Counted from the stretch's first letter, positions 7,360 to 22,593 are shown. The stretch: DNA of 42,478 nucleotides from Chthoniobacter flavus (GCA_945883435.1 CAMCXK010000024.1:1-42478), one strand, 5' to 3'. Notes: generated by a model not told the origin, from the sequence alone. Numbers and translations: made by a program.

Positions 7360-7480
7360 TCAAAGTTCCGCTACGCGTGCGAGCGAGCCAAAGGACACAA
7401 TAAACCTCTCCTGTTTATCCTGCTCATGCTGTCTTCCTGTCCAAAAATCCGGTTTCGGATTCAAAGTTCCGCCACGCGTG
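7360..7480 (+). repeat. Pair of 20-bp direct repeats flanking an interspersed repeat
   Basis: TCAAAGTTCCGCTACGCGTG at 7360-7379 recurs at 7461-7480 with one mismatch (C for T at position 13). The copies bracket the 62-bp interspersed element at 7400-7461, so this stretch could be the scar of an inserted repeat with duplicated ends, or a composite repeat unit. Confidence 0.7.
7400..7461 (-). repeat. Interspersed intergenic repeat, copy A
   Basis: On the minus strand this begins with a small hairpin (AATCCG, 4-nt loop, CGGATT) and continues with a purine-rich run containing GGATAAACAGGAGAGGTTTAT. Copy B at 23738-23798 is nearly the same over about 60 bp. Tandem-like CAGGA words within it resemble intergenic repeats common in environmental bacteria (from memory, not searched). 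Confidence 0.8.
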
Positions 7481-7484
7481 GGAT

Positions 7485-7748
7485 TCAATATCCGGTGTGG
7501 TAGCCGCTCAGGGATTTTTCGGCTGGCGGATGTTGGCCATAGCCGCCCGGAATGGAATCCTCGTTGAGCTTGTAGCTCTTCTCCCCGCGGGCGCGGGCAA
7601 GTTCCTGGGTGAGCAGGAACCTTGTGTAGTTCGAGAGACTGCCGAAGCCCATGCGCTCGGCCAATTCCCGCGCGTCCCGCGTCAATTCCGGTTCCAGCGA
7701 AATCCCCGCACTCTTGGATTTGCGCGCTATCGGCTTCTTCGGGTTCAT
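7485..7748 (-). CDS. Small ribbon-helix-helix-type protein
   Basis: 87 aa. The N-terminus is Lys/Arg-rich, followed by a strand-helix-helix pattern (KSAGISLEPELTRDARELAE, then SLSNYTRFLLTQELARA) like the fold of small CopG/Arc-type DNA-binding repressors. The C-terminal 30 residues are Gly/Pro/Tyr-rich. It is a relative of the divergent gene at 7855 (shared AGISL-x-PEL core). A TTG at 7757 would add three residues; the ATG at 7748 is preferred. Base composition is like the GC-rich host genes, not like the AT-rich block to the right. Likely a repressor or the DNA-binding half of a regulatory pair; no toxin gene is visible beside it. Confidence 0.65.
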   Translation of the reverse strand: MNPKKPIARKSKSAGISLEPELTRDARELAERMGFGSLSNYTRFLLTQELARARGEKSYKLNEDSIPGGYGQHPPAEKSLSGYHTGY

Positions 7749-7768
7749 GTCAAACAAAATAGCCGTTG

Positions 7769-7841
7769 CTCAATAATTGTCATTTTTTTAATCCGCAAAA
7801 AAATCAGAAAAAACTTCTTGCCAGCGAACTCAACAATTGGC
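7769..7841. promoter_or_regulatory. Two near-identical operator-like sites between the RHH genes
   Basis: CTCAATAATTGTC (7769-7781) and CTCAACAATTGGC (7829-7841) differ at two of 13 positions and each contains a CAA-N-A-TTG type near-palindrome. They lie 60 bp apart, one just before each of the two divergent RHH genes. RHH repressors often bind short palindromes in their own promoter, so autoregulation is a reasonable inference. The sequence between them is A/T-rich, as expected for divergent promoters. Confidence 0.4.
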
Positions 7842-7854
7842 AAGAGATGTGCCC

Positions 7855-8082
7855 GTGAGCCGCACTCGCATCGATCCTCTCCAAAAATCCACCGCCGCCG
7901 GCATTTCACTGCCTCCCGAACTGATCGCCGATGCCAAACGGCATGCCCGCGACCAAGGTCTGACGCTGTCCGGATACGTGCGCCTCCTCCTCCTCCGCGA
8001 AATCAAGGCGTTTCGGAATCATCCCTCGTCGCCCACCCAATCGCCATCACTGCAAAAAACAAACAATCCTGAAGATTTATGA
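7855..8082 (+). CDS. Small ribbon-helix-helix-type protein, coupled to terC
   Basis: About 75 aa from the GTG at 7855, which has an AAGAGA ribosome-binding-like site 8 nt upstream; a GTG at 7849 and a TTG at 7837 are in-frame alternatives. The core (AGISLPPELIADAKRHARDQ, then LSGYVRLLLLREIK) has the RHH strand-helix-helix pattern and matches the divergent neighbour. The last 20 residues are polar and likely flexible. Its TGA overlaps the terC ATG (ATGA), so it is translationally coupled to the ter block and is the best local candidate for its regulator. Composition changes from GC-rich to AT-rich right at this overlap. Confidence 0.65.
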   Translation: MSRTRIDPLQKSTAAGISLPPELIADAKRHARDQGLTLSGYVRLLLLREIKAFRNHPSSPTQSPSLQKTNNPEDL

Positions 8083-9062
8083 CACCCACAGCTGACCTCA
8101 CGCTACCTAGTATGGTGATGAGTAAAATCGAACTCACCGACATTTTGGCCTTTGCGATTCCGTTCATCCTCGCAATTTTTATTGACCTCGGCATGCATCG
8201 AAAAGGCAAGACGGTTTCTATGGCGGATGCGGCCATGTGGTCTCTGATCTGGCTGATTTGTGCTGGTTGTTTCGGATTCTACATTTTCCTGCATTCAGGC
8301 GTCACCGCCGCAAGCCTCTATGCTCAAGGTTATATCTTGGAAAAGGCACTTGCTGTTGACAATTTATTTGCTTTTTATCTGATATTTAAATCTTTTGGCC
8401 TGACAGTCCCTGCAAACCAACACTTGCAACACCGTATTCTTTACTGGGGAATTTTGGGGGCTATTCTTTTCAGAGTATTCTTTTTGGGAATTGGTGCACT
8501 TATTGTCAATCTGAGTCCTTATGTGTTAATAGGATTTGCGTTGGTGGTTCTCTGGACTGTCAAAAAAATGTGGTCGAGCAGTGACGATGATGAAGAAGTC
8601 GACTACACCCAGCACTGGTCGGTTAATTTTGTCAAAAAATTTAGCAGAGTAAATCCATCTATCGAAAAGCACCGGTTTTTTGATAACGGAGTAACACCGC
8701 TATTCCTTTGCTTGGTTTGTATTGAGGTCTGTGATGTTATTTTTGCATTCGACTCGATGCCAGTGATTATTGCAGTCGTAAGAGACCCTTATCTCATGAT
8801 TACCTCCAGCTTATGGGCTGCCGCTGGGCTGAGAAGTCTATATTTCCTTTTGGTGGCGGCTCAGCAGCAATTCTGGGCACTCGATAAAGCGGTAATGATA
8901 CTGCTTGTTTTCATTTCTTTTAAGTTGATCGGCAGCGCTTTTGGATACCATCTCCCACATACCATGAGCCTATCCATTGTTGGTGTTATTCTTGCGTCAG
9001 GAATTATTTGGTCTCTCGCTCGACCACAGGCTCCTGATGTCGATCAAGATTCCGCAACATAA
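8079..9062 (+). CDS. terC: TerC-family integral membrane protein
   Basis: 327 aa with about eight or nine hydrophobic helices. Both TerC signatures are present: EKALAVDNLFAFYLIF near residues 87-102 and FAFDSMPVIIAVVRDP near 223-238, each carrying the membrane-embedded Asp proposed to handle metal ions. An acidic loop (SSSDDDEEVDY, about 168-178) faces one side. TerC proteins are inner-membrane parts of tellurite-resistance/stress systems; some relatives export manganese or affect metal loading of exoproteins. It leads a plus-strand run in which genes are mostly separated by a few bases. The internal ATG before SKIELTD (near 8112) is an alternative start, but the ATGA overlap with the RHH gene favours 8079. 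Confidence 0.92.
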   Translation: MTPTADLTLPSMVMSKIELTDILAFAIPFILAIFIDLGMHRKGKTVSMADAAMWSLIWLICAGCFGFYIFLHSGVTAASLYAQGYILEKALAVDNLFAFYLIFKSFGLTVPANQHLQHRILYWGILGAILFRVFFLGIGALIVNLSPYVLIGFALVVLWTVKKMWSSSDDDEEVDYTQHWSVNFVKKFSRVNPSIEKHRFFDNGVTPLFLCLVCIEVCDVIFAFDSMPVIIAVVRDPYLMITSSLWAAAGLRSLYFLLVAAQQQFWALDKAVMILLVFISFKLIGSAFGYHLPHTMSLSIVGVILASGIIWSLARPQAPDVDQDSAT

Positions 9063-9071
9063 ACCCGCAAT

Positions 9072-9740
9072 ATGGCTATTAATCTATCCAAAGGACAAAG
9101 AATCGACTTGCGCAAAGCTAGCGGTGCATCACTGATCGAATTTTGCGTCGGAGTGAATTGGGGAGCTATCGAAGCAAAAGGTGGTTTTTTGGGGCTTGGC
9201 AAAAAAGTAACCGATGTGGATTTGGATCTAAGTGCGGTGTTGCTCAATACGGATGGCCAACTTTGCGACCACATCTACTCCCCGCTATATAAACAGGACT
9301 TGCTTGATAAATGCGGTTTGCCACCTGGAAAACTCACTGCGGCCAATGGGGCCCTGAAGCATACCGGGGATGATCGCGCCGGTGATTCAGGCGGAGACGA
9401 TGGACTTGATAACGAAGTGATTACTGTGAATCTGGCTCTGGTGCCGGGGAATGTCGGCCAAATCTTCTTCTTTTTAAATAACTGCGGAAAGGAAGACTTT
9501 TCGCAGATTCCCTATGCGAAAATTCGCATGTTTGAAGGCTCTCCGACTAAAGTAAAGGAAGTCTTCGCTTCCTACAATGTTTCTGCGGAAAGCCAGTATG
9601 CCGGGCGGCGGGCAATGATCCTTGGACGCCTTTATCGTCGCGGAGACGAGTGGAAATTCGCGGCGATCGGCGATCCAACCGATGATGTTTTCGTAGGGCA
9701 GACAGTTCTACGAATCGCACAAAACTACAACAAGATATAA
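9072..9740 (+). CDS. TerD-family calcium-binding protein, long divergent (TerZ-like) form
   Basis: 222 aa. It starts with the family sequence MAINLSKGQRIDL and has the acidic calcium-binding stretch (HTGDDRAGDSGGDDG, near residues 96-110) followed by the beta-strand pattern of the TerD fold. Compared with the two shorter paralogues downstream it carries a roughly 30-residue insert (GFLGLGKKV and LLDKCGLPPGKL regions). It ends in the shared GRLYRRGDEWKFAAIGD motif. TerD-type proteins bind calcium and are cytoplasmic partners of TerC in stress or tellurite resistance. Spacing to terC is 9 bp. No clear Shine-Dalgarno sequence is seen, as for the other TerD genes here. Confidence 0.9.
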   Translation: MAINLSKGQRIDLRKASGASLIEFCVGVNWGAIEAKGGFLGLGKKVTDVDLDLSAVLLNTDGQLCDHIYSPLYKQDLLDKCGLPPGKLTAANGALKHTGDDRAGDSGGDDGLDNEVITVNLALVPGNVGQIFFFLNNCGKEDFSQIPYAKIRMFEGSPTKVKEVFASYNVSAESQYAGRRAMILGRLYRRGDEWKFAAIGDPTDDVFVGQTVLRIAQNYNKI

Positions 9741-9745
9741 AACTT

Positions 9746-10300
9746 ATGGCTATTAACCTGACAAAAGGACAACGCATTGATGTGGGCCTCCAGCAAGCCG
9801 GTATCGGCTTGGGGTGGAATCCCAATGAGGGAGCTTCATCGGAGGCTTACGATCTAGACGCCAGCGCGTTCATGCTGGGAGACAACGGGAAGCTCATTTC
9901 CGGCGAATTCTTTGTTTTCTACAACCAACCACAATCGCCTGATGGCGCCGTCAAAACCAGCGGTGATAATCGGGACGGCGAGGGCGACGGAGATGACGAG
10001 AATCTATTTGTCAATTTGGGATCCGTGGACCAACGCGTGAAAGAAATCATCTTCGTCGTTACGATTCACGATGCTGAACAACGCCGCCAGAACTTTGGGC
10101 AAGTCCGCCAAGCGTTTATTAGAATCTATAACCAAGCGAACAACGAGGAGATTTGCAAATACGAGCTGGATGAAGATTTCTCCACAGAGACGGCCGTGGA
10201 ATTTGGTCGCCTCTATCGGCGCGAGGGCGCTTGGAAATTCGAAGCCATTGGCCGCGGTTTTAATGGTGGGCTGCAAACTTTAGTGGAAAAGTATTCTTAA
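9746..10300 (+). CDS. terD: TerD-family calcium-binding protein
   Basis: 184 aa, close to the standard TerD/TerE length of about 190. It opens MAINLTKGQRIDVGLQQAG, has the first acidic site (YDLDASAFML) and the second (TSGDNRDGEGDGDDEN, near 71-86), and ends with the domain's FEERRQNFGQ-like and KYELDEDFS segments. All acidic residues expected for calcium binding are present. It is most similar to the gene at 10575. It starts 5 bp after its longer paralogue, so co-translation in one complex is likely. Confidence 0.93.
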   Translation: MAINLTKGQRIDVGLQQAGIGLGWNPNEGASSEAYDLDASAFMLGDNGKLISGEFFVFYNQPQSPDGAVKTSGDNRDGEGDGDDENLFVNLGSVDQRVKEIIFVVTIHDAEQRRQNFGQVRQAFIRIYNQANNEEICKYELDEDFSTETAVEFGRLYRREGAWKFEAIGRGFNGGLQTLVEKYS

Positions 10301-10311
10301 GTAAATCCCCC

Positions 10312-10563
10312 ATGACAAAGTGTCGTTATTGCGGCTCCACTTCTTTCGGTTCCGGATGTGCTTACGGACCACGCCGTGTCCATGAACATGAGGGTGATGG
10401 CTCCAAATGCGTTTGGTGCGGATCAACATCATATGGCTCAGGGTGCGCTTATTCCGAAGATCGCAAGCATCGGCATGGACACGGCAGAGGTTGTGTATGG
10501 TGTGGATCAAGCTCCCGAGGGAGCGGTTGTGCCTACAGCCCTGATAGGGTTCATGTTCATTAA
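10312..10563 (+). CDS. Small triple Cys3-His2 repeat protein
   Basis: 83 aa made almost wholly of three 23-residue units: residues 4-26, 33-55 and 61-83. Each unit reads C-x2-C-G-S-[ST]-S-x-G-S-G-C-A-Y-x3-R-x-H-x-H. Linkers are 6 and 5 residues, and the protein ends exactly at the last His. Each unit has three Cys and two His, enough for one zinc or other soft-metal ion, or for direct tellurite/thiol chemistry. I do not recognise it as a named family. It lies between two TerD genes with 11-bp gaps on both sides, which argues for a shared role. The frame, spacing and regular repeat make a random ORF very unlikely. Confidence 0.85.
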   Translation: MTKCRYCGSTSFGSGCAYGPRRVHEHEGDGSKCVWCGSTSYGSGCAYSEDRKHRHGHGRGCVWCGSSSRGSGCAYSPDRVHVH

Positions 10564-10574
10564 AGTTATAGACC

Positions 10575-11186
10575 ATGGCAATTAATTTAACAAAAGGGCA
10601 AAGGATCGATATCGGCCTTCAAAAAATTGCTGTCGGCCTTGGGTGGGATCCCAATAAAGCCAATCCGGATGTTGAGTTTGACCTTGATGCTTCGGCATTT
10701 ATGATTGATGCATCAGGTCGGATTCCTAGCGAGGGATTTTTTGTATTTTACCAAAGCGAGACCAGAATTCCTCCTGGAAGCCAATGGCCAGATGGAATCC
10801 CAGTTTCCCCCGATGGGGCAGTTAAATCTTCTGGCGATGATCGCACCGGCGGAAGTTCCGACGGTGATGATGAAACATTAAGTATTGATCTAAGTAAGAT
10901 CGATTCACGCATTGAGCAAATTATCATCGCAGTTACAATATACGAGTTTGAGGAGCGCCGACAAAACTTTGGCCAAGTTCGAAACTCGTTTGTCAGAATA
11001 TACGATGAGCTTACAAATGAAGAGATTTGTAAATACGAATTGGACGAAGATTTCTCCGTGGAAACTGCTGTTGAATTTGGTCGTCTCTATAAACGCAATG
11101 GAGCATGGCGTTTTGAGGCAATTGGAAACGGGACATCCGGAGGGCTTTCAACTTTTGTAAAAAAATATGCTTCAGATTACTCTTAA
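10575..11186 (+). CDS. terD: TerD-family calcium-binding protein
   Basis: 203 aa. It begins MAINLTKGQRIDIGLQKIAV and contains FDLDASAFMI and the acidic site SSGDDRTGGSSDGDDET (near 90-106). It ends like the 9746 paralogue (shared ICKYELDEDFS and ETAVEFGRLY). A short extra loop rich in Pro and Gly (IPPGSQWPDGIPVS, about 65-85) accounts for the added length. Very probably a duplicate of the neighbour that has diverged, with codon choice drifting to A/T at third positions. A roughly 60-bp A-rich gap separates it from the first TerY gene, the largest gap in the first half of the block and a possible site for an internal promoter. Confidence 0.93.
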   Translation: MAINLTKGQRIDIGLQKIAVGLGWDPNKANPDVEFDLDASAFMIDASGRIPSEGFFVFYQSETRIPPGSQWPDGIPVSPDGAVKSSGDDRTGGSSDGDDETLSIDLSKIDSRIEQIIIAVTIYEFEERRQNFGQVRNSFVRIYDELTNEEICKYELDEDFSVETAVEFGRLYKRNGAWRFEAIGNGTSGGLSTFVKKYASDYS

Positions 11187-11248
11187 AATAAACCCAGTTT
11201 TTAAAGTTCAGTAAACCAACAAAAAAACAAAAAAACAAATAAATAACT

Positions 11249-11887
11249 ATGCGTCGTCTCCCAGTATACCTCGTCCTTGATACATCCGGCTCCATGTCTG
11301 GAGAGCCAATCCAGCAAGTCAAAAATGGCGTCCAAATGCTTGTCTCGGCATTGCGCCAAGACCCGCAGGCCCTTGAAACGGCTTATTTAAGCGTTATCAC
11401 CTTCGACTCTTCAGCAAGAGAAGCTGTTCCTCTGACCGATCTGCCATCTTTCCAGGCACCTGATATTAATGCAACTGGAACCACAGCAATGGGTGAGGCA
11501 CTTGCGCTTGTGGCAAATTGCGCAAAGCGCGATGTTAAAACAGCTACCGCAGGCCAGAAAGCCGACTGGCGGCCAATGGTTTTTCTCATGACGGACGGAT
11601 CTCCCACTGATGACTTCGAAAAAGGCTTGGCGCGGTTTAAATCAGAAAAATGGGGAGCAGTTGTAGCTTGTGCAGTTGACAGCGCCGATACTGGGTTATT
11701 GCAAAAAATAGCTGGAGAGGCTGTTGTGAAGTTGGATACATCGGATAGCTCGGCCCTGTCAGCATTTTTCAAATGGGTAACAGCATCCATCAGTTTCTCC
11801 AGCCAGAGTGTGCAAAAGACTGGTAAAGATGTGGAAGGATTGAATCAACTTCCCCCGCCGCCACCAGAAATCCAAGTCGTTGTTTGA
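11249..11887 (+). CDS. terY: TerY-type von Willebrand factor A protein (1)
   Basis: 212 aa, a bare vWA domain. The metal-ion-dependent adhesion site is complete: D11-T-S13-G-S15 (LDTSGSM), the Thr of GTTAMGEAL, and the Asp of LMTDGSPTDD. TerY proteins are the vWA member of the TerY/PP2C/kinase triad described for ter-type stress systems, thought to scaffold phosphorylated partners. The last 12 residues (LPPPPPEIQVVV) are the same as in the next gene even though the DNA differs at third positions. It is followed one base later by its paralogue. Confidence 0.93.
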   Translation: MRRLPVYLVLDTSGSMSGEPIQQVKNGVQMLVSALRQDPQALETAYLSVITFDSSAREAVPLTDLPSFQAPDINATGTTAMGEALALVANCAKRDVKTATAGQKADWRPMVFLMTDGSPTDDFEKGLARFKSEKWGAVVACAVDSADTGLLQKIAGEAVVKLDTSDSSALSAFFKWVTASISFSSQSVQKTGKDVEGLNQLPPPPPEIQVVV

Positions 11888-11888
11888 A

Positions 11889-12527
11889 ATGTCGCGACGA
11901 CTGCCTGTTTACATTCTTCTGGATACTTCCGGCTCGATGAGAGGGGAGCCTATTCAGGCTTTAAAGGTCGGCCTTCAATCACTTGTTTCAACTTTGAGAC
12001 AAGATCCACACGCCTTGGAGTCCGTTCACTTGAGCATCATAACCTTCGACGCCCAGGCGCGCGTTGTTTGCCCTCTTGAGAGTTTGGAGTCGTTTCAATT
12101 ACCTTCTATAGAGTGCCCCCAAAGCGGACCCACTATGACTGGAGCCGCTTTGGAGTTGCTGTGCCAGTGCGTGGACCGCGATGTGAAAAAAACTACTGGT
12201 GACCACAAAGGCGACTGGCGCCCGATAGCTTTTTTAATGACCGACGGAAGCCCCAACGATACAGCGCTATACGAACGAATGACTTCTGAAGTCAAAAAGA
12301 GACCATTCGCATCGGTTATCGCTTGTGCGGCAGGGGCAAAAGCCAAGGTGGAGCCGCTCAAAAAACTGACCTCTCAACTTTTTAATTTGGAAACCATGGA
12401 TAGCCATTCGTTTTCTGGATTGTTCCAATGGGTTTCTTCTACGGTGTCGACTGGTAACCGGAGCATGGGAGTTTCCAGCAGTATTGTTCTGCCGCCGCCG
12501 CCACCCGAAATTCAAGTCGTTGTGTAA
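11889..12527 (+). CDS. terY: TerY-type von Willebrand factor A protein (2)
   Basis: 212 aa from the ATG at 11889; a TTG at 11880 would overlap the previous stop. It is a paralogue of the preceding gene with an intact metal site (LDTSGSM, then TMTGAALEL and LMTDGSPND) and the same tail LPPPPPEIQVVV. It differs from TerY (1) mainly in surface loops. A pair of vWA proteins followed by PP2C and kinase genes reproduces the triad layout with a doubled vWA part. Pairs of vWA domains could form a dimeric metal-dependent platform; this is inference. Confidence 0.92.
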   Translation: MSRRLPVYILLDTSGSMRGEPIQALKVGLQSLVSTLRQDPHALESVHLSIITFDAQARVVCPLESLESFQLPSIECPQSGPTMTGAALELLCQCVDRDVKKTTGDHKGDWRPIAFLMTDGSPNDTALYERMTSEVKKRPFASVIACAAGAKAKVEPLKKLTSQLFNLETMDSHSFSGLFQWVSSTVSTGNRSMGVSSSIVLPPPPPEIQVVV

Positions 12528-12535
12528 ATATAGAA

Positions 12536-14317
12536 ATGATTATTAGTCAAGGATACAGAAAAATAAAAGATCCAGTTAGGTTCTTTCGGGAACTTATATC
12601 TGCATTAGAGGATCGCCATAAGGAAAAGAAACCGCATGGTCAAATTGGATTGCTCGAAAGTTGGATTTCAAAGGATGGTGAGTTTAATAAGGATCGCTTC
12701 AATCATGATGCTCTAGATGAGGATCGTATTCGTCCAGACACCTACACCTCTGATGTGGAGGTGCTATATGATTTATCGGTTCGACAAGTTACTGGAAATA
12801 AAGTTGATGCTGGAACGCCATTTTCTGCTTCGCTCTACAAGACATCAAATTGGCCTAGTGCTTTTCTAGATAAACTCGAAGAATTTTCAAAAGTCCCTTC
12901 TGAAAAACACAAAGACTTTGAAGTTAAAGATTTTCTTTTAGCACTTTCAGAGACGACTAAAGAGCAACCACCTGAAGCCGTAAATTCCGAACCAGTGGCT
13001 TCCGCAAGCGAGATCTCTGAAGGCAATGATCAAGGGCAGGCATCTAAGAAAATTGAACCGCCGAAGGAGGTTCCTAAACCCCCGATTCCCGTCCAGTTAA
13101 AAAATGGAACCGTCGGAAAACCATATGAATACGAAGCCGGTAAAATAGCTAAAGCCATCGCTAGTAAGTGCGGAGACGATCCAGAAAAAGCCTTCATTCA
13201 AAATTTAAAGTTTCCCGAAGGGAGTGGGATTGTTTTCGATGAAAATTCTGGAGCAATTTCGGGCAGTCCTACCCTTGCATTTGAGCTAGAAATTGATCTG
13301 CAATATTTCAAAGACAAATTCTCCGAGGCCCGACCTGCTAAAATTAAAGTCCTTATAAACCCTGACCCAGCATCTCTCTGGAAAGACCTCCCTACTCCTG
13401 CAGATGCTCCATATCAAAAAAAGAATACCGACCACAAATTTCTGGATGCGGGCGATTTTCAGGTCATAGCCGCCAGCCGCAGGGGTCGCTCACATGCCAA
13501 CAAAGGCGATTTTCGGGATGATGATTTCAGCACAGGCTTTTGTAAAGATACAGGTTGGGTGGTCGTAACAGTTGCCGACGGAGCAGGATCAGCAAAATAT
13601 TCAAGAAAAGGGTCCCAGCTTGCCACTGAAACCGCGCAAAGCAGGCTCTTGAATGTCTTGAGTGATTCAAAGAACTCTATCGACAAGCTAATTGATCACA
13701 ATAAAATATGGGATGCCCCAGAAGTTAAATCAGCCGTTCGAGGTCTTTTGTATGACGCCGCTCTTGCCGCTCATTACAAACTTGTTGATGAATCCAAAAG
13801 CCCTAGCGAAAAACTCGCGTCTGAGCCAATCCTTCGGAACTTCGACACCACTCTTATTCTTCTTATCCTGAAGAAAATTCCACAGGGCACTTTGCTAGCC
13901 ACTTTTTCTATCGGCGATGGAGGAGCGGGAGCAATGATCTCTCCAGAAGCAGGTCTGCCTTTGACGCAGCAAGACAGTGGCGAACATGCCGGCCAAACAG
14001 TTTTTCTTACTTTCCCATCCACCTTGCGGCAAGAAGAGTCAAATCTCGCCCAGAGGTTTCACATGGTCTGCCTGCCCGAATTTGTTGGAGCTGTTGCGAT
14101 GACAGATGGCATTACCGATCCCAAATTTCCCAGCGATGCATCATACTCAGAATCATCCCAGTGGGGAATCTTCTGGAAGGATTTGCAATCCGGCCTGGGC
14201 TCTTCGGAAAACCTTTTGGAATGGATGAACTTTTTCGCCCCAGGAAACCACGACGACAGAACGCTCGTCGCTATTGTTCCAAGAAAAGCCAACGCCCCAG
14301 CTCATGAGCATCGTTAA
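12536..14317 (+). CDS. PP2C-family phosphatase with N-terminal unknown and Ig-like regions
   Basis: 593 aa. Residues 1-130 are a polar helical region I do not recognise. About 130-185 is a Glu/Pro-rich linker. About 185-280 resembles a putative Ig (He_PIG/cadherin-like) module, with NGTVGKPYEY and FDENSGAISGSP. The C-terminal 300 residues are a PP2C phosphatase with its metal-binding Asp motifs: VADGAGSA (D348), SIGDGG (D461), MTDGITD (D524) and DDRT (D573/D574). It removes phosphate from Ser/Thr in a Mn/Mg-dependent way and should oppose the next gene's kinase. There is no signal peptide, so the Ig-like part would be cytoplasmic. Its 3' end overlaps the kinase start by 14 bp. Confidence 0.88.
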   Translation: MIISQGYRKIKDPVRFFRELISALEDRHKEKKPHGQIGLLESWISKDGEFNKDRFNHDALDEDRIRPDTYTSDVEVLYDLSVRQVTGNKVDAGTPFSASLYKTSNWPSAFLDKLEEFSKVPSEKHKDFEVKDFLLALSETTKEQPPEAVNSEPVASASEISEGNDQGQASKKIEPPKEVPKPPIPVQLKNGTVGKPYEYEAGKIAKAIASKCGDDPEKAFIQNLKFPEGSGIVFDENSGAISGSPTLAFELEIDLQYFKDKFSEARPAKIKVLINPDPASLWKDLPTPADAPYQKKNTDHKFLDAGDFQVIAASRRGRSHANKGDFRDDDFSTGFCKDTGWVVVTVADGAGSAKYSRKGSQLATETAQSRLLNVLSDSKNSIDKLIDHNKIWDAPEVKSAVRGLLYDAALAAHYKLVDESKSPSEKLASEPILRNFDTTLILLILKKIPQGTLLATFSIGDGGAGAMISPEAGLPLTQQDSGEHAGQTVFLTFPSTLRQEESNLAQRFHMVCLPEFVGAVAMTDGITDPKFPSDASYSESSQWGIFWKDLQSGLGSSENLLEWMNFFAPGNHDDRTLVAIVPRKANAPAHEHR

Positions 14318-15815
14318 AGTCAAATCCCTTACAACAAGTAAGGAGTATCAATTCGATCAAAAAAAACCTGCTGGCACGGGTGCCATGAAGGAGGTGTTTT
14401 TCTCTCCAGATCGCAGTTATGTTGTCCAGATTTTCAAATCGCCTCAAGATAACAATTCGATGGAGCGATTGAAAAATATCGTTGGGAAATTTAGGGAAAA
14501 TATCTTCAATCAATCTGGAGGCGATTACTGGGAGTCTGTGTATTGTTGGCCAAATGATATTGTTACGGTTCCTGGTAGTAATCAAACAGCCCTTATTGCG
14601 CCTGTCTACAGAAAGGAGTTTTTCTTCCAGTTTGGATCAGCGAATAATGACATGCTCGGAATCAAGGGACGCGACAAACAGGGGAGATGGTTTGCTTCAG
14701 CACATCATCGAGTAAAATTTTTAGATTCACGAGAATTGGGGGATTGGAGAAGTCATCTTGGTCTATGCGTTCGTATTGCTCGAGCCGTCAAGCGAATGCA
14801 TGCCGCAGGCCTTGCCCACTCGGATTTGTCATACAGAAATGTTCTTGTCGATCCATTATCTGGCGGCGCCTCAGTAATTGATATTGATGGTTTGGTTGTT
14901 CCTCAAAGATTTCCTCCAGATGTTATTGGGACGCCAGATTTTATTGCTCCTGAGGTATTAAGAACGCTTTCACTTCCACTTACAGACAAAAAACGAGCTC
15001 TTCCTTGCATTGAAACGGACCGACATGCCTTGGCGGTTTTGATCTACATGTATCTTCTGTATAGGCACCCCTTGAGGGGGGGCAAGATACATGATTCGGA
15101 CCCTGCAAAAGATGAAGAAATGCACATGGGTGAAAAAGCTCTTTTCGTTGAGCATCATCAAGATAAAACAAATCGCCCAAATATTAGCAATCTAAGGCCA
15201 ACGGACCTGCCATTTGCTGATATTCAGAAAATCCCTCACACCTGCACAGGTCCATATCTGTCTGAGCTTTTCCAAAAAGCATTTATTGACGGCCTGCACA
15301 ACCCCAATTTGCGTCCCACTGCTAACGATTGGGAAACGGCGCTCGTAAAAACAGTCGATCTCATCCAGCCTTGTAAAAACCCAAAGTGTTCCCAGAAGTG
15401 GTATGTCTTCGACAATTCCACAAAACCCAAGTGCCCCTTTTGTGGAACACCTTATTCTGGACTATTGCCGGTCTTGAACCTCTACTCCCGGCGCCGTAAC
15501 AGCGATCCATTCAAGCCTGACAACCACCGGATCATGGTTTACACAGATCAATATCTCTATCCATGGCATGTCAACCGGCTCATTGCTCCCAATGAGCGTT
15601 TGACCCCGGAGCAGAAAAAGCCCGTAGGTTACTTCGTCCAACACCAAGGAATCTGGTGGTTTGTCAATCAGACACTCCCATCTTTAAAGGATGTCACTAA
15701 CAAAAAAGACATCCAACTAGGGGCAAAAGTAGAGCTTGTTGATGGTCTCCAGTTACTATTGAGCCCAGAGGAAAACGGAAGGCTTGTTCAAGTTCAGATG
15801 GTGAGGGGAGAATAA
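14304..15815 (+). CDS. Serine/threonine-type protein kinase with C-terminal zinc ribbon
   Basis: 503 aa from the ATG at 14304. Residues 15-300 are a protein-kinase fold: Gly-loop region GTGAMKEV (24-31), candidate ATP-binding Lys45 (VVQIFK), catalytic loop H172-S-D174-L-S-Y-R-N179, metal site DIDG (193-196) in place of DFG, and GTPDFIAPEV. Near residue 365-390 is a four-Cys zinc ribbon (CKNPKC and CPFCGTP). The last 110 residues are a beta-rich region with no name I can give. This is the kinase of the TerY/PP2C/kinase triad; its likely substrates are the vWA or FHA-linked proteins nearby. The DIDG variant is typical of this kinase branch and not a sign of decay. Confidence 0.9.
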   Translation: MSIVKVKSLTTSKEYQFDQKKPAGTGAMKEVFFSPDRSYVVQIFKSPQDNNSMERLKNIVGKFRENIFNQSGGDYWESVYCWPNDIVTVPGSNQTALIAPVYRKEFFFQFGSANNDMLGIKGRDKQGRWFASAHHRVKFLDSRELGDWRSHLGLCVRIARAVKRMHAAGLAHSDLSYRNVLVDPLSGGASVIDIDGLVVPQRFPPDVIGTPDFIAPEVLRTLSLPLTDKKRALPCIETDRHALAVLIYMYLLYRHPLRGGKIHDSDPAKDEEMHMGEKALFVEHHQDKTNRPNISNLRPTDLPFADIQKIPHTCTGPYLSELFQKAFIDGLHNPNLRPTANDWETALVKTVDLIQPCKNPKCSQKWYVFDNSTKPKCPFCGTPYSGLLPVLNLYSRRRNSDPFKPDNHRIMVYTDQYLYPWHVNRLIAPNERLTPEQKKPVGYFVQHQGIWWFVNQTLPSLKDVTNKKDIQLGAKVELVDGLQLLLSPEENGRLVQVQMVRGE

Positions 15816-15833
15816 TTTCGCTAAGAAAGAGTC

Positions 15834-16313
15834 ATGCTTATTCTTCTTGCCAAGTATGCCGACTGGCTCATCCCTATGCTTGGCGGTGTCTTGAGTTTAT
15901 GGCTCTTGATTGCTATAATTCGCGTTTACAACAATTGTAAAAAACTGGAGATTCATTTAGATGAGCTATTAGCCAACTCTGAGTCCACAAGAATAAAGCT
16001 CAACAATGTTTACGCGGAACTTTACAAGCTGCTTGGTAAGTATTCGATCCATGAATCCGATATCCTCAAATACATCTCAGCGGGTCAATCAAATATTCAA
16101 CTATTAGCAACTCAATATCCGCAGCTTAAGGCTGATGTTATTTTTCAGAATGCAAGCAATAGCTGGTCAGCTTTGTATGCCGAGCTTCAGAATTGTATGG
16201 TAATTTATAATCAAATTGTAACTCAATACAATACATATGTTACCAATTTTCCGAGGGTTTTAGCCTGCCTTTTAATTGGAAGAAAGATAAGAAAACATGG
16301 TAAAATAATGTAA
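15834..16313 (+). CDS. LemA-family membrane-anchored protein
   Basis: 159 aa. One N-terminal membrane helix (about residues 10-30) is followed by a helical domain with the LemA pattern: LNNVYAELYKLLGKY near 60, NIQLLATQYPQLKAD near 92, and YNQIVTQYNTYVTNFP near 130. LemA proteins have an outward-facing N-terminus and cytoplasmic helical bundle. Their job is not settled, but they recur with stress and phage-shock-like gene sets. The DNA is strongly A/T-rich, more so than the genes before it. It starts 19 bp after the kinase gene. Confidence 0.88.
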   Translation: MLILLAKYADWLIPMLGGVLSLWLLIAIIRVYNNCKKLEIHLDELLANSESTRIKLNNVYAELYKLLGKYSIHESDILKYISAGQSNIQLLATQYPQLKADVIFQNASNSWSALYAELQNCMVIYNQIVTQYNTYVTNFPRVLACLLIGRKIRKHGKIM

Positions 16314-16381
16314 AACTAATTTAAATAGAAATGCCTAATTACTCTTTATATTTTTCAGAAAATTATCATTAATAAAAAACC

Positions 16382-16993
16382 ATGAGTTTCAGTAGTAAAC
16401 CACATATTTTTGGTAAAGCCAAATGGCCGGTTACTATTACGCTATCATTGATTTTAGCTTTTTCCTTGGATTCTTTCATTTCAAAATACTATTCTCAGGT
16501 TGATTTAAGGACTCAATCCGCAATCATTCGCTTTGGAATAATCTTTGTTTTGTCTTTAGGGGTTTCGATAGCATTAACTTCAGAAACTTCACTACGAGCC
16601 ATTCTCTCACTAATACCAGCTCTCGTATGTGCAGCAATTCTGGGTGTCGTCGTCTATTTCGGATTTGATGCCTTCTCGGGTCCAAATCTGAACCAGTCAA
16701 ACCAACAAACATGGACAACTATTTCTACGATAGTTGGGCTGCTGATTTCATGGTCTGGCTTTTACAATTTATTATCTCATTCTTCTTGGATTGGAAAGCC
16801 TTGTCCATCTTGCAAAACGAGAGGAAAATTAAGTTCAGGCATGTCTTCTAAAGAATATATGGGTGCAACTTATGAGAGGGACTCCCAATCAAATTTAACC
16901 AGATATAACAAATATTTAATTACATATCAGCACGATTGTTCACATTGTGACTATCAGTGGCATACAACCTCTGAAACTAAAGAGAGTCAGTAA
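16382..16993 (+). CDS. Four-helix membrane protein with zinc-ribbon tail
   Basis: 203 aa. Four hydrophobic segments lie at about 15-33, 45-65, 72-95 and 110-130. The soluble tail has two CxxC knuckles: CPSC near 140 and CSHC near 187, with a His (HDCSHCDYQW) beside the second. This should hold one zinc ion. I do not recognise the family. It lies 68 bp after the LemA gene in a very A/T-rich stretch. The zinc ribbon echoes those in the kinase and TerY-C protein, so these parts may share a partner. Confidence 0.75.
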   Translation: MSFSSKPHIFGKAKWPVTITLSLILAFSLDSFISKYYSQVDLRTQSAIIRFGIIFVLSLGVSIALTSETSLRAILSLIPALVCAAILGVVVYFGFDAFSGPNLNQSNQQTWTTISTIVGLLISWSGFYNLLSHSSWIGKPCPSCKTRGKLSSGMSSKEYMGATYERDSQSNLTRYNKYLITYQHDCSHCDYQWHTTSETKESQ

Positions 16994-17043
16994 AATGTCA
17001 CAATTGCCTCCAAGGCATGCATGAAATCTTTTACTAAACTGAA

Positions 17044-18075
17044 ATGAATCGAAGACTACCGGTTTACTTGCTTATTGATTGTTCCGAGTCGATGATCGGG
17101 GGGGGCATTGAATCTGTTCGGCAGGGCTTATCTACGATGGTTTCCAAGCTCAGGATAGACCCCCATGCTCTCGATTCTGTATTTTTGAGCGTGATTACAT
17201 TTGATTCCGCGGCTCGTGTTGCAGTTCCATTAACTGGGCTTGTTGATTTTCAAGAACCCAAACTGATTACGAAGCCGGGAACGGCTTTGGGCCAGGCACT
17301 CAAATTACTTTCACAACAAATCGAAAAAGAAGTCCAAAAGACATCGCATCAGACAAAGGGGGATTATCGCCCGTTGGTTCTTTTGTTAACAGATGGACAA
17401 CCGCTTGATGATTGGAAAGCCCCGCTCGCAAAACTCGGCAAGGATATCCGCCCGCGGCCAGCCAATATTTATGCCATTGGTTGTGGTGAGGATGTGGACT
17501 TTTCCATTCTTCAAAGTATCACGGACATCGTTTTGAGAATGGAAAACATGGGGCCGGAGTCTTTTGCAAAACTCTTTGTCTGGCTCACGGCCTCTGTCTC
17601 CAGCGCAAGCCAAGGTGTGGGCGAGTCTGTCGAGGGAAAATTCAACTTGGAAAAGCTTCCCGACAACATCGAAGAAGTGAAAGCAAAGGCCGCTCCCCTT
17701 TCCGATGGGCCACCCCGTCAAGTTTTTCTTCGAGCCAGATGCGCTACCAAAAAGTTTCCCTACTTGATGCGCTATCGATTCGATCCTGTTTTTGGATGCT
17801 ATCAGCCTACCAAATCCCACAGGCTCAGCGAAGAAGAAATGCAGGGTTCTGGTGAATTTGCCATGCCGGATATCGCATCCAACCTGCTCAATGGAGCGCC
17901 GCCTTGCCCGTGGTGTGAAACGCCTGGCGCTGGAAATTGTGGAAATTGCGGAACAATCTTTTGCGCCAGTGCGAATGACCATTCAGATGTCACATGCCCT
18001 GGTTGCGCAACAGTTCTCAAATCGGGTCCTCAAGGCGAGTCCGTTTCATTTGGCGTCCGGCAAAGCGGCGGATAA
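17044..18075 (+). CDS. TerY-C type vWA protein with C-terminal multi-Cys domain
   Basis: 343 aa. Residues 1-200 are a vWA domain with metal site D12-C-S14-E-S16, GTALGQAL and LLTDGQPLDD. The usual Gly after the first Ser is Glu here. After a linker come a roughly 60-residue region (RARCATKKFPYLMRYRFD) and a Cys-rich module with CPWC, CGNC, FC and CPGC plus a His (about 288-328). This matches the TerY-C layout, in which the vWA part is joined to a metal-binding tail. It lacks the proline tail of TerY (1) and (2). It probably joins the triad as a second, metal-responsive vWA component. Confidence 0.87.
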   Translation: MNRRLPVYLLIDCSESMIGGGIESVRQGLSTMVSKLRIDPHALDSVFLSVITFDSAARVAVPLTGLVDFQEPKLITKPGTALGQALKLLSQQIEKEVQKTSHQTKGDYRPLVLLLTDGQPLDDWKAPLAKLGKDIRPRPANIYAIGCGEDVDFSILQSITDIVLRMENMGPESFAKLFVWLTASVSSASQGVGESVEGKFNLEKLPDNIEEVKAKAAPLSDGPPRQVFLRARCATKKFPYLMRYRFDPVFGCYQPTKSHRLSEEEMQGSGEFAMPDIASNLLNGAPPCPWCETPGAGNCGNCGTIFCASANDHSDVTCPGCATVLKSGPQGESVSFGVRQSGG

Positions 18076-18093
18076 AACCCTAATACTGATAAA

Positions 18094-18741
18094 ATGAATT
18101 ATAGCCACATTTTACTCGTTTTTTTTATTTCAATTGCACTTGTTGCTTGTGAATCTGAAGTTGAGAGAAATGACCGTTTGGTCCGAGAGGCTCAACAAAA
18201 AGAAGCTGAAGCCGCTCGTAGGGAGCAAGTTCGCATAGAGACTGAAAAAAGGGCAGAAGAGGTGAGAGTGCGGCGCGAGGCTGAAGAAGAGAAAAAGCGC
18301 AGGGAAAAAGAAATTTACGATCGTTATATAAACAATTCCTTGCCAACGGGGTCCACGCCCTATTTTGATTACTATGGAGGCAACCCCACTTGCAATGGTT
18401 ATGGTTGTTCAGAGATTGTAGTGAGGACGAGCAACTCCGATGTTTTAGTTACAATCAAAAGTCTAGGCAAGGTGGTTAGACACGGTTATGTAAAAGCTGG
18501 CGGTTCTTATACATTTTCCATGCCAAACGGGACTTATCAACCATTCTTCTACTATGGTAAAGGCTGGAATCCTGAGAAGGAAATGAAAAATGGCGAAATT
18601 CGAGGTGGGTTTGTAACCAAAGAGGATTTTGGCAAAGATGACCCTCAAGTTTTAAGAAACAATGTATTAACTTATGAGTTAATTCTTCAGGTCGATGGAA
18701 ATTTTAGCACCAGACCAAGCAATCCGTTAGAAGCCTTGTGA
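18094..18741 (+). CDS. Lipoprotein with coiled-coil stalk and beta-type head
   Basis: 215 aa. The N-terminus MNYSHILLVFFISIALVAC is a lipoprotein signal with Cys19 as the lipidation site (LVAC). Residues 22-80 are a highly charged Glu/Arg/Lys coiled coil. Residues 90-205 hold a compact domain rich in Tyr, Gly and beta-strands, with a Cys pair (CNGYGC, near 105) likely forming a disulfide. Such a layout suits a periplasmic or outer-membrane-linked sensor reaching across the envelope. The family is not recognised. The gene lies 18 bp after the TerY-C gene and 23 bp before the FHA protein. Confidence 0.78.
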   Translation: MNYSHILLVFFISIALVACESEVERNDRLVREAQQKEAEAARREQVRIETEKRAEEVRVRREAEEEKKRREKEIYDRYINNSLPTGSTPYFDYYGGNPTCNGYGCSEIVVRTSNSDVLVTIKSLGKVVRHGYVKAGGSYTFSMPNGTYQPFFYYGKGWNPEKEMKNGEIRGGFVTKEDFGKDDPQVLRNNVLTYELILQVDGNFSTRPSNPLEAL

Positions 18742-18764
18742 TTTTGATGCAAACCACCTGAAGA

Positions 18765-19583
18765 ATGCGAAATAACAAAAAAATCCTCTTTGCATTCTGC
18801 GGTTTTTTGTCCGGAGCAATCGGAGCCGTGGTTGCAGAGTTAATTCCAGATTTTGGTCAAAATATTCCCGGACTTGTTGGCCATGTTGCAGTTTGGTCGG
18901 CTATTCTTGCATCGTTTATTGCGATCGGGCTTACGGCAGCAGGGGAGATATACAACCGCCGACCCTTCTCTGCATCGTCATATCGCGCTTCTCTTCTTGC
19001 GGGTGCGGTGGCTGGAGCGATAGCAGGAGCAGTGGCGCAAGCCGTATTCTCCGTGAGAAGCGGTGATGACTTTTTTCACGATGTGCTTTTCCGCTCATTC
19101 TGTTGGTCGCTCATGGGAGCTGTAGTTGGTTGGCGCCTCTCTTCTTCTATTCCAAATCTTGGATCAAAAAGGGGGTTAATTGCCGGTGCAATAGGGGGTT
19201 TTGTTGGAGGACTAGGTTTTGTGGGTGTTTGTCTCATTATGCCCGAGTTGCTAGCGAGGGCAGCTGGAGTTGCTTTCTTGGGTCTCTCCTTGGGTGTAGC
19301 GGTTGTTGCCATAGAGCAAATCACCCGCGATGCCAAGTTGGAGGTCATCTGGGGTCCAAAGGAAATAACTTCCGTTAGCTTGGGTGCCAAACCAGTTCTC
19401 ATAGGCGGTGGAGATGATCATGTGTATATATTTGGTGTCCCAGAGCATGCCATTTCAGTAGAATTGATTAGTGGCAAGATTGTCTGCACTGAGAAATTGA
19501 GCGGCAAAAAGAGCGATCTCAAGGACGGAAGTCGCATCAAAGTCGGCCGCGTCGAACTTATCGTTCGGACAGCTTCTTCCTAA
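18765..19583 (+). CDS. Membrane protein with cytoplasmic FHA-like domain
   Basis: 272 aa. Residues 8-190 carry about six Gly/Ala-rich membrane helices (for example GAVAGAIAGAVAQAVF and GAIGGFVGGLGFVGV). Residues 195-272 resemble a divergent FHA domain: SLGAKPVLIGGGDDHVYI, then VPEHAISVELISG, then LKDGSRIKVGRVEL. This matches the FHA pattern of a start strand, H-A core and L-x-DG-x-x-I-x-x-G turn. The usual Arg and Ser of the phosphothreonine pocket are not obvious, so phosphopeptide binding is uncertain. Next to a kinase and a phosphatase, a membrane-bound phosphothreonine reader is the natural inference. It is followed 3 bp later by the protease gene. Confidence 0.75.
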   Translation: MRNNKKILFAFCGFLSGAIGAVVAELIPDFGQNIPGLVGHVAVWSAILASFIAIGLTAAGEIYNRRPFSASSYRASLLAGAVAGAIAGAVAQAVFSVRSGDDFFHDVLFRSFCWSLMGAVVGWRLSSSIPNLGSKRGLIAGAIGGFVGGLGFVGVCLIMPELLARAAGVAFLGLSLGVAVVAIEQITRDAKLEVIWGPKEITSVSLGAKPVLIGGGDDHVYIFGVPEHAISVELISGKIVCTEKLSGKKSDLKDGSRIKVGRVELIVRTASS

Positions 19584-19586
19584 GCA

Positions 19587-20639
19587 GTGAAAATTCTTGT
19601 CCAGAGGGGCGGTCAAACTTTCGGTCCCTACACCGAACAAATTGCCACACAGTATTTAGCCGCTGGCACCTTGCTTCCACATGACTTGGCAAGAGACGAC
19701 GCTTCTGGAGTTCTGAAATGGGTTCCACTCAAGACATTGCTTGCAAAAAATCATGGCCCTTCAAGGGTGTCTTTGAGCAGCTTGATTTCGCAAACCATTG
19801 CAAGTTTCAAATCTTTTGACCTCAATCTGATTTTTCCTTGGAAAGAGATTGCATCCCTAAGCTGGGTAAAGGACCGCAAGCTGATCTACCTTGCGGCCAT
19901 TGGTCTTGGTCCTGCAGTTGCACTTGCTGTAACTGGCGGCCAGTCTCTTTCTTATTGGGCAATTGCATTTTATTTTTCTTCACTCTGGGCTCTTTTCTTT
20001 TACTACCTATTCCGGACCAACCAGGTGGAAACTTGGCTTTGTTTAACCTGCTTCTTTGTTACGGGTGTAGTTTCAATCGCCATACTTTTAATGCTCCAGC
20101 ATTTGCCGCCATGGACTTTTCTTTACTCGATGACAGATTCAGGAAATTTTCTGGCGCGCGTTTTTGGCATGTTTTTTGGGGGCGCAATCAACGAAGAAAT
20201 TTGCAAGGCGGCAGTGATCTTTTGGTTGGTTAGGCGCCCTGGTAGCATACTGATGCCGCAGACGGTTGTTTTCTATGGTATGATTTCGGGATTGGGATTT
20301 GGGATTTATGAAGGAGTTAATTACCAGCAAACTATCAACAGGCAGCAGGGCATTGATACGGCATACTTTTTGAATATCGCACGCTTGACCTCGTTGCCTT
20401 TCCTCCACGCTGTTTGGACCGGAATCGCTGCTTATTTCATCGCATTTGCTGCTTTGGTTCCTTCTAAAAGGCACGCTCTTTGGCTAGTGGCTATCTTGAT
20501 ACCAGCAGTTCTCCATGCCACATACAATATCTGCGGTTGGAACATCCTCGGTCTCGCCAGTGGGCTTTTGAGCGTTATATTGTTAATGACATATCTTTCG
20601 AACTGCATCGCAATGCAGCAACGCCTCAAAAAGCCCTGA
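19587..20639 (+). CDS. PrsW-family membrane protease with N-terminal GYF-like domain
   Basis: 350 aa from a GTG at 19587, 3 bp after the previous stop. Residues 1-50 look like a GYF_2 module (RGGQTFGPYTEQ, then W at about 47). Residues 100-345 are a multi-helix membrane region with the PrsW set: E203-E204 (NEEICKA), FGIYEGVNY, H274 (LHAVWTG) and H310 (LHATYN). PrsW-type enzymes are membrane proteases; the Bacillus one cleaves an anti-sigma factor. GYF domains bind proline-rich peptides, and the two TerY proteins of this block end in LPPPPPEIQVVV, a possible ligand. It is the last gene of the ter block. Confidence 0.85.
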   Translation: MKILVQRGGQTFGPYTEQIATQYLAAGTLLPHDLARDDASGVLKWVPLKTLLAKNHGPSRVSLSSLISQTIASFKSFDLNLIFPWKEIASLSWVKDRKLIYLAAIGLGPAVALAVTGGQSLSYWAIAFYFSSLWALFFYYLFRTNQVETWLCLTCFFVTGVVSIAILLMLQHLPPWTFLYSMTDSGNFLARVFGMFFGGAINEEICKAAVIFWLVRRPGSILMPQTVVFYGMISGLGFGIYEGVNYQQTINRQQGIDTAYFLNIARLTSLPFLHAVWTGIAAYFIAFAALVPSKRHALWLVAILIPAVLHATYNICGWNILGLASGLLSVILLMTYLSNCIAMQQRLKKP

Positions 20640-20786
20640 ATCTTACAAGAGAAGGCATTCTTAAAACTAATAAAAAATTGGGGAATGCATTATTAATCTT
20701 CCCGGAAGACCTTCCTAATTAGTCGGCCCTGAAAAACTTTTTAACTAATTTTCTTGGAATGTAATAGGTATGATTCTTGCTGTGTT

Positions 20787-20832
20787 GGATTGCAGGCAAA
20801 ACCTGCCTGCACACTCAAAATCCCTGCAATCC
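20787..20832 (+). promoter_or_regulatory. Leader hairpin before the transposase start
   Basis: GGATTGCAGG (20787-20796) pairs with CCTGCAATCC (20823-20832), a perfect 10-bp stem with extra pairing inside (GCAGG/CCTGC). It ends 6 nt before the preferred transposase ATG at 20839. Hairpins here can hide the start from transcripts that enter from outside the element; in this case the role is inferred. Confidence 0.5.
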
Positions 20833-20838
20833 GCGTCA

Positions 20839-22155
20839 ATGAAACCCACCTCTTCCGACACTGCTCAAACATCCTTTTTGCTCCCCGACTTGGAAAAACA
20901 GCTCGATCCACGCAGTCTGCTTTACCGCTTAGCACAGGCCATCGACTGGAAGGGTTTTGAAAAGACCTTTGGTTCTCTCTACTCCACAGAAGGGCGTCCA
21001 GCCCTGCCGATTCGGCGCATGGTGGGGCTTCTCATGCTCAAGAGTTTGAGGAACCTCAGCGACGAAGAGGTGGTGGAGTTTTGGAGCGAAAGCGCCTACG
21101 CGCAATATTTCTGCGGAGAGAAGGAGATGAACTGGGGATTGCCATGCGATCCGAGCGAGTTGACTCATTTTCGCAAACGCATCGGCACAGACGGGGCGGA
21201 GCGGATATTGGCCTCTACGATTGATCTGCACGGCGAGAAGGCCAAGGAAAAGGAGGTCGTTGTCGATACCACAGTTCAGGAGAAGAACATCACTTTCCCG
21301 ACGGATACGAAACTGGCAGCCAAGATCGTGCGCGGGGGAGTGAAACTGGCGAACAAGCATGGAGTCAAATTGCGCCAGAGTTTCGAGCGCACGGTGCCGA
21401 AACTTTTGGCGGCACAACGCGGGCGCCGCACCAAGGGCGGAGCGGCTGCAGCACGAAAGGCGGCGAGACGCTTGAAGACAATCGCCGGACAGGTCGTGCG
21501 ACAACTCGATACAGGCTTGTCTGCGGAAACAAAAGACCGGCGCTGGTTGGAAACAGCCGTTCGGGTTTTGAATCAAAAGCGCAACGACGGAGATAAAATC
21601 TACTCACTGCACGAGCCGGAGGTTTACTGCATGAGCAAGGGCAAGGAGCACAAAAAGTATGAGTTCGGAGCAAAGGCCTCGGTGGTGGTAGGGAAAAACA
21701 ACGGCGTGATCCTGGGTGCCTACAGTCTACCGAAGAATGATTACGATGGGCACGCATTGGAGCCAACGCTTGAGCAGGTTGAGAGGGTGTCCGGATATCG
21801 GCCAGCAGTAGCCATCGGCGACAAAGGATTTCGAGGCAAAACGCACTGTGGCACAACCGAGATTGTTACTCCCAACAGGCCCAAGAAGAACGCCACCGCT
21901 TACGAGAAACGAAAGGCGAAAGCGCGATTTCGGAGACGGGCGGCGATTGAACCACGAATCGGGCATCTGAAAAGCGACTTCCGCTTGGGCCGCAACTTCC
22001 TCAAAGGCCAAGTGGGTGATGCGATCAACCTACTTTTGGCCGCGGCGGCCTCGAACCTGAGCCTCTGGATGAGGCAGGTTCTTTTTGCACTTGTTTCAGC
22101 AATCCAAAATTTGGCGCGAGAGTGTCGGACTTTTCGCTCGCCCGTTCCAGCGTGA
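20839..22155 (+). CDS. IS5-family DDE transposase
   Basis: 438 aa from the ATG at 20839 (MKPTSSDT); the frame is open back to an ATG at 20770, which would put a leader hairpin inside the gene. The N-terminal part has the IS5 helical region (RPALPIRRMVGLLMLKSL, then DPSELTHFRKRIG). The DDE residues are visible: first Asp in VVDTTVQE, second in AIGDKGFRG, and Glu in AAIEPRIGHLK. The family-typical SLPKNDYDGH and RLGRNFLKGQVGD are also present. The gene is intact, so the element may still move. It cuts and pastes the element at the terminal repeats. Confidence 0.93.
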   Translation: MKPTSSDTAQTSFLLPDLEKQLDPRSLLYRLAQAIDWKGFEKTFGSLYSTEGRPALPIRRMVGLLMLKSLRNLSDEEVVEFWSESAYAQYFCGEKEMNWGLPCDPSELTHFRKRIGTDGAERILASTIDLHGEKAKEKEVVVDTTVQEKNITFPTDTKLAAKIVRGGVKLANKHGVKLRQSFERTVPKLLAAQRGRRTKGGAAAARKAARRLKTIAGQVVRQLDTGLSAETKDRRWLETAVRVLNQKRNDGDKIYSLHEPEVYCMSKGKEHKKYEFGAKASVVVGKNNGVILGAYSLPKNDYDGHALEPTLEQVERVSGYRPAVAIGDKGFRGKTHCGTTEIVTPNRPKKNATAYEKRKAKARFRRRAAIEPRIGHLKSDFRLGRNFLKGQVGDAINLLLAAAASNLSLWMRQVLFALVSAIQNLARECRTFRSPVPA

Positions 22156-22173
22156 GAGTTTTTCAGGGCCGAC

Positions 22174-22396: not shown

Positions 22397-22593
22397 ATGT
22401 GGCGGCTGCTGGCTGGAGGAACCGCTCCGTCAAGTCGGGGCGGCACAGGAATGTCGGTGGCCGGGCAGGGGAGGGTAAAAACGACTTTTGTCACGGGTGG
22501 GTTTCGGCTTGAGTGTCATGGTTGTATGCATCACCGCATGATCCCAGCTTGCCGCTGTGCCCGGAGTGGCCCGGTTTACTCGATAGAGATCGC

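Follow-up and report, generated by a model that had tools for sequence, protein, structure and literature searches.

The window analysed here, the whole 42,478-nucleotide stretch of Chthoniobacter flavus DNA (GCA_945883435.1 CAMCXK010000024.1:1-42478), carries between positions 8079 and 20639 an island which we read, with a probability of roughly 0.6, as a horizontally acquired phospho-signalling operon of the TerY-P type in a ter setting, extended by rare, mix-and-match membrane accessories. Its main point of interest is the recurrent pairing of the TerY-P triad with GYF-PrsW, a PrsW-type glutamic intramembrane protease fused to a GYF-like domain. This rare, triad-linked protease offers a concrete, testable candidate output of ter phospho-signalling.

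The core of the island, comprising TerC, three TerD proteins, two short TerY-like vWA proteins, a PP2C phosphatase, a kinase, and the TerY-C protein (Table 1), corresponds in its domains and motifs to the already published TerY-P triad in a ter setting, which is common. The triad is formed by a TerY vWA protein, a PP2C phosphatase, and a Ser/Thr kinase with a zinc ribbon (PMC11090510, after Anantharaman et al. 2012). Here, three proteins carry a TerY-like vWA domain with a metal ion-dependent adhesion site (MIDAS), the PP2C gene is adjacent, and the kinase is fused to a zinc ribbon; motifs at the catalytic and metal sites are intact in the vWA, PP2C, kinase, and PrsW proteins. The triad recognized in an earlier note on this DNA thus stands in all its parts. 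The Pkinase match is borderline (32.4 bits against a cut-off of 31.7), and the zinc-ribbon cysteines are invariant in all seven aligned kinases. We took the ATG at 14304 as the kinase start, the listed TTG at 14274 giving a longer open reading frame (ORF).

To place this core, a kinase alignment was scanned against 84,980 species genomes; the best 80 of at least 500 relatives were kept and, together with eight further loci, yielded 88 triad loci for comparison (numbered with the prefix L, genomes with G). PP2C occurs together with the kinase in 86 of these, vWA and TerD genes are present in most, and TerY-C accompanies 73, with TerY-C relatives also found in 2305 plasmid records. The search for the same gene order elsewhere, which the earlier note had proposed, revealed that other Verrucomicrobiota (L033, L035, L036, L039) keep the core order, namely TerC or another membrane protein, TerD genes, vWA1, vWA2, PP2C, kinase, and TerY-C; the core order also appears across the 80 loci. 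Identity to the Verrucomicrobiota loci reaches 68-73% for TerC (L036, L039), 77-79% for TerD protein a (L033, L035, L039), and 86% for vWA protein 1 (L033, L035).

GYF-PrsW is the accessory that recurs most clearly with this core. Relatives 39-44% identical to the window protein occur in Bacteroidales and in another verrucomicrobial family, in both cases at triads: the gene adjoins the kinase in the Bacteroidales loci L049, L079, and L120, lies one gene away from TerY-C in the verrucomicrobial L028, and is represented in L040 by a 53-codon fragment beside TerY-C. In four members of the GYF-PrsW family, the EE..K (EExxK) motif, E242, H274, and H310 are invariant, and three of four aligned members match GYF_2 (best E 6e-4). 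These adjacency counts are biased, since three such genomes were chosen for having triads, and the unselected surveys are the fairer test. In the phylum, 2 of 388 genomes contain relatives, both at a triad, and in surveys of 395 and 198 Bacteroidota genomes no full-length case turned up beyond the seed genomes, which bear triads. Across about 980 genomes sampled regardless of the triad, full-length GYF-PrsW was seen only in triad-bearing genomes; viral contigs contained no relatives. This repeated pairing in separate clades argues that GYF-PrsW is more than cargo. Together with the recurrence of the lipoprotein and the FHA-like protein described below, it hints at a connection, so far undescribed, between phosphorylation and proteolysis in the membrane.

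Two further matches were set aside. The weak match in G476 (E 1e-25) is a PrsW that aligns only from position 65 onwards, and its short contig carries no triad genes; G737 gave a similarly partial PrsW match, with 3.8 kb in view and likewise no triad genes. Separately, small TerB-like proteins with a LADGVID motif are encoded next to GYF-PrsW or between the vWA genes of Bacteroidota triads (L049 12511-12882, L072 5812-6192, L079 12519-12905, L120, and L121); in L121, two of them flank GYF-PrsW.

The lipoprotein and the membrane FHA-like protein also recur with triads. The former, already named in the earlier note and recognizable by its lipobox, matches no known family and is 66% identical to a protein encoded between vWA2 and TerY-C in the Chitinophagaceae triad L072, whereas the other 196 of 197 Chitinophagaceae family members sampled gave no match; its relatives appear neither in plasmids nor in viral contigs. 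For the latter, a relative (32% identity) directly follows the kinase on an Azospirillum plasmid (L023). The protein has a multi-transmembrane part, and its FHA-like domain is indicated solely by relatives, the window protein itself having no Pfam match. In L163 (G183 contig 95, 9704-10981), the same membrane part is joined to a true Pfam FHA domain (7e-9) at the corresponding position, and a profile built from four FHA-like domains matches the PDB FHA chains TB39.8, GarA, Rv1747, and KIF13B (E 0.003-0.03). The phosphothreonine site, by contrast, is eroded in the window domain: IGGG stands for Gly-Arg, S..H and NG are missing, and EHA alone is left. With the Arg, Ser, and Asn-Gly lost, a role as phosphothreonine reader of the kinase output is not supported, and 'degenerate FHA-like adaptor' seems the most fitting name for the domain. 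The quality of the structure models was too low for fold searches (pLDDT, the model confidence score, 54 for the lipoprotein and 51 for the FHA-like protein, modelled with AlphaFold from the window sequence only and showing C-terminal strands); neither gave a match below E 0.001, and no FHA domain is among the 50 Foldseek matches listed for the FHA-like model at that pLDDT. Viral contigs contained no relatives of the FHA-like protein.

Two side observations concern this membrane family. The L163 gene lies between other genes with no triad in view. On a Gloeothece plasmid (L024 9068-10522), a cyanobacterial protein combines a vWA part with this membrane and FHA-like part. Its gene sits in a cluster that also holds FHA, PP2C, and kinase genes, which gives the family a second vWA/PP2C/kinase context.

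The remaining three add-ons form a second class that accompanies no other triad examined. The 83-residue peptide, which bears the three Cys3His2 units announced in the earlier note, has no relatives in plasmids, viral contigs, or the triad loci examined; LemA was not found in the 88 triad loci; the membrane zinc-ribbon protein matches no Pfam or NCBIfam family above cut-off and has no plasmid relative. The slot between kinase and TerY-C is itself variable, because a 79-residue membrane peptide (L036 11523-11762, L037 5333-5572) there replaces LemA and the membrane zinc-ribbon protein of the window.

The earlier note had envisaged a full pathway from envelope sensing to phosphorylation to proteolysis, and had offered to abandon it if homologues of the last seven genes were never found with the triad elsewhere. 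Four of the seven do recur with triads (TerY-C, lipoprotein, FHA-like protein, GYF-PrsW), which removes that objection. Such a chain is plausible; as a fixed pathway it is not supported, because the second class of add-ons was found at no other triad, no other locus seen brings the add-ons together, and the FHA-like domain has lost the phosphothreonine-reading residues. A common core with shuffled accessories appears to be the better description. The recurrence with triads in distant lineages makes the lipoprotein, the FHA-like protein, and GYF-PrsW look like real, swappable accessories and, as their hosts fall into separate kinase-tree clades, they would have joined triads more than once or been lost many times.

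That the island was acquired horizontally is well supported by its absence from the genus, its base composition, an insertion sequence (IS), and flanking genes that are non-adjacent in the relatives checked. None of 15 same-genus genomes has a TerY-C relative, which marks the island as acquired. GC content is 0.35-0.50 between about 8000 and about 20700 and 0.57-0.63 outside, stepping on the left from 0.57 (7001-8000) to 0.44 (8001-9000) and on the right from 0.45 (20001-21000) to 0.56 (21001-22000); GC at third codon positions behaves likewise (0.64-0.80 in flanking genes, 0.31-0.56 in island genes). An IS5-type element directly abuts the island on the right. The AT-rich composition against GC-rich flanks, the insertion sequence, and the transfer that the earlier note had drawn from them are hence all borne out. 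Those flanking genes that were checked are chromosomal housekeeping genes (release factor RF-1, ThiF, DnaK, photolyase, ribonucleotide reductase). Left-flank ThiF and right-flank HAD lie on separate contigs in the same-genus genomes compared, so that no empty site was seen, and alignable left-flank DNA stops near 6980. Of 388 genomes of the phylum, this one and 11 others have the kinase; six of the 12 are close (E below 1e-100). In the kinase tree, the window groups with Verrucomicrobiota operons at 99-100% support, and the donor was thus probably a relative in the same phylum.

At the edges of the island, two small divergent ribbon-helix-helix-like ORFs lie on the left (7485-7757 on the minus and 7837-8082 on the plus strand), the second overlapping the listed TerC start by 4 bases; TerC translation may in fact begin at an ATG further in, at 8112 or 8118. 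On the right, a frame on the minus strand (21900-22433), which by the look of its sequence resembles an IS110-type transposase remnant, extends past the IS5-type element on the opposite strand.

How the parts may work together can be sketched. The vWA proteins, with their MIDAS metal, and the TerD proteins, members of a calcium-binding family, would assemble around TerC into a scaffold associated with the membrane. Under metal or envelope stress, the balance between kinase and PP2C may shift via the zinc-ribbon kinase and the TerY-C protein, in line with the literature hypothesis of TerY-P as a metal-sensing phosphorylation switch (PMC11090510) and with the response of Klebsiella ter genes to Te, Zn, and Mn (PMC12054061). 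As the three recurring add-ons all reside at or in the membrane, they suggest that the switch is coupled to the envelope. The lipoprotein would work from the outer side, and the FHA-like protein may draw the complex to the membrane without reading phosphothreonine in the classic way. The GYF domain could bring PrsW to a proline-rich partner, after which PrsW would cut a membrane substrate. The shared C-termini of both short vWA proteins (PPPPPEIQVVV) are a candidate GYF ligand. A stronger version, in which GYF-PrsW is a dedicated effector of a TerY-P sub-lineage, recruited by kinase/PP2C signalling via its GYF domain and the proline-rich vWA tails to turn a metal or envelope stress signal into regulated membrane-protein cleavage, with the lipoprotein and the degenerate FHA protein as outer and inner adaptors, seems to us unlikely.

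Several observations weigh against our reading. The polyproline-GYF link rests on sequence inference, and GYF_2 in the window protein stays below the Pfam cut-off (0.013). In G510, TerB-like genes flank a PrsW gene whose contig carries no triad, though the genome has one. No other locus was seen to hold all add-ons together, and the lipoprotein and the FHA-like protein are each found at one other triad. Moreover, the kinase loci examined are the best 80 of at least 500, many of them on incomplete contigs.

A rival proposal is that only the core is a functional unit, with the lipoprotein, the FHA-like protein, PrsW, LemA, and the others as hitch-hiking cargo in a tolerated slot of a mobile operon. 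The closest relatives whose contigs permit a check (L033, L034, L036, L039) have none of the six add-ons, the second class of add-ons was found with no other triad, and slot contents differ by host (the 79-residue membrane peptide in L036 and L037, TerB-like genes in L049 and L079, DUF4236-TPR and AIM24 in L028). Yet three of the six turn up again at triads of distant phyla while being very rare elsewhere, and the island is tightly packed on one strand, the gaps at the last three genes measuring 3-23 bases; we therefore regard mere cargo as possible but rather doubtful.

An anti-phage defence system with the membrane add-ons as effectors is quite improbable. TerY-P is linked to CoCoNuT restriction systems, some TerY-P-like modules defend alone (PMC11090510), and plasmid ter loci have long been associated with phage inhibition, to judge from a title in the reference list of PMC12054061. 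Against this, no nuclease, helicase, or restriction-type domain is present among the 15 proteins, viral contigs yielded no close triad kinase, and PADLOC gave weak, kinase-level matches to other systems (best E 4e-5) and none for the other nine proteins scanned, leaving a defence-system assignment unsupported by that scan.

The features are collected in Table 1. The island is filled by 15 plus-strand ORFs with intergenic gaps of -14 to 68 bases, a close one-strand spacing that makes a single operon likely; promoter and terminator scans scored little above chance. The earlier note had counted 14 genes: the plus-strand run and all parts it named are present, and the membrane zinc-ribbon gene had been overlooked. 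Most island proteins for which a Pfam model exists lie well above the Pfam cut-off, and four of the 15 ORFs have no family above it (the Cys3His2 peptide, the membrane zinc-ribbon protein, the lipoprotein, and the multi-transmembrane FHA-like protein).

Table 1. Genes of the ter island and the adjoining insertion sequence (TM, transmembrane).
Feature	Coordinates	Strand	Basis
TerC-family membrane protein	8079..9062	+	Pfam TerC 1.1e-35
TerD protein a	9072..9740	+	Pfam TerD 7e-29
TerD protein b	9746..10300	+	Pfam TerD 9e-73; motifs DLDASAF, GDNRDGEGDGDDE
83-residue peptide, three Cys3His2 units (CxxC...C...HxH)	10312..10563	+	Sequence, motif search
TerD protein c	10575..11186	+	Pfam TerD 6e-62
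TerY-like vWA protein 1	11249..11887	+	Pfam VWA 9e-17; MIDAS intact (DTSGS/TTAMG/TDG)
TerY-like vWA protein 2	11880..12527	+	Pfam VWA 5e-12; MIDAS intact (DTSGS/TMTG/TDG)
PP2C phosphatase	12536..14317	+	Pfam PP2C_2 3.5e-28; metal-site Asp motifs ADGAG, GDGG, MTDG, DDRT
Ser/Thr-type kinase with C-terminal zinc ribbon	14304..15815	+	Pfam Pkinase 8e-8; HSDLSYxN, DIDG, C-x4-C...CPFC
LemA-like protein, one TM helix	15834..16313	+	Pfam LemA 1.3e-8; hydropathy
Membrane protein with C-terminal zinc-ribbon-like CPSC...CSHC	16382..16993	+	Sequence
vWA + TerY-C metal-binding domain protein	17044..18075	+	Pfam VWA 3e-14, TerY_C 1.5e-7
Lipoprotein	18094..18741	+	LVAC lipobox; a long, charged helix; low-confidence model with beta-rich C-terminal part
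Multi-TM protein with degenerate FHA-like C-terminal domain	18765..19583	+	Relatives in L023, L163; domain profile
GYF-like domain fused to PrsW-type glutamic intramembrane protease	19587..20639	+	Pfam PrsW 2e-23; relatives at triads L028, L049, L079, L120
IS5-type insertion sequence, flanking, outside operon	20722..22171	+	NCBIfam IS5 transposase 3.5e-128; 17-bp perfect terminal inverted repeats

Among known systems, the TerY-P triad is the closest in content: the window has all its enzymatic and scaffold parts with intact motifs and TerY-C, TerD, and TerC as neighbours, and differs by a duplicated short vWA gene and by the six add-ons, three of which are triad-linked nowhere else among the loci examined. 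The 15 proteins include neither a CnuB/C pair nor a CnuH helicase domain of CoCoNuT type II/III-A. With the enterobacterial plasmid ter locus, ordered terY-CYXYW-ZABCDEF (PMC12054061), the island shares TerY-C, two more vWA genes, and the combination of TerC with several TerD-domain proteins typical of the terZABCDEF operon. In contrast, its TerY-C is only about 36% identical, and no Pfam TerB match, a further feature of the plasmid type, was found among the 15 ORFs; weak TerB-like genes are present in loci of some relatives. The Azospirillum ramasamyi plasmid ter locus (L023) resembles the window in carrying TerC, TerD, two vWA genes, TerY-C, PP2C, and kinase followed by the membrane FHA-like gene, and departs from it in lacking the lipoprotein and PrsW and in continuing with DUF4236, phosphoribosyltransferase, StiP, and HpcH-type genes. 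In a search of open papers, none of those listed joins PrsW with ter genes in a relevant way. The window protease misses the NCBIfam equivalog cut-off for PrsW (25 against 225 bits); it shares with the PrsW glutamic intramembrane proteases a domain above the Pfam cut-off, EExxK, and the conserved Glu and His residues, and is set apart from them by its extra N-terminal GYF-like domain and its occurrence with TerY-P triads.

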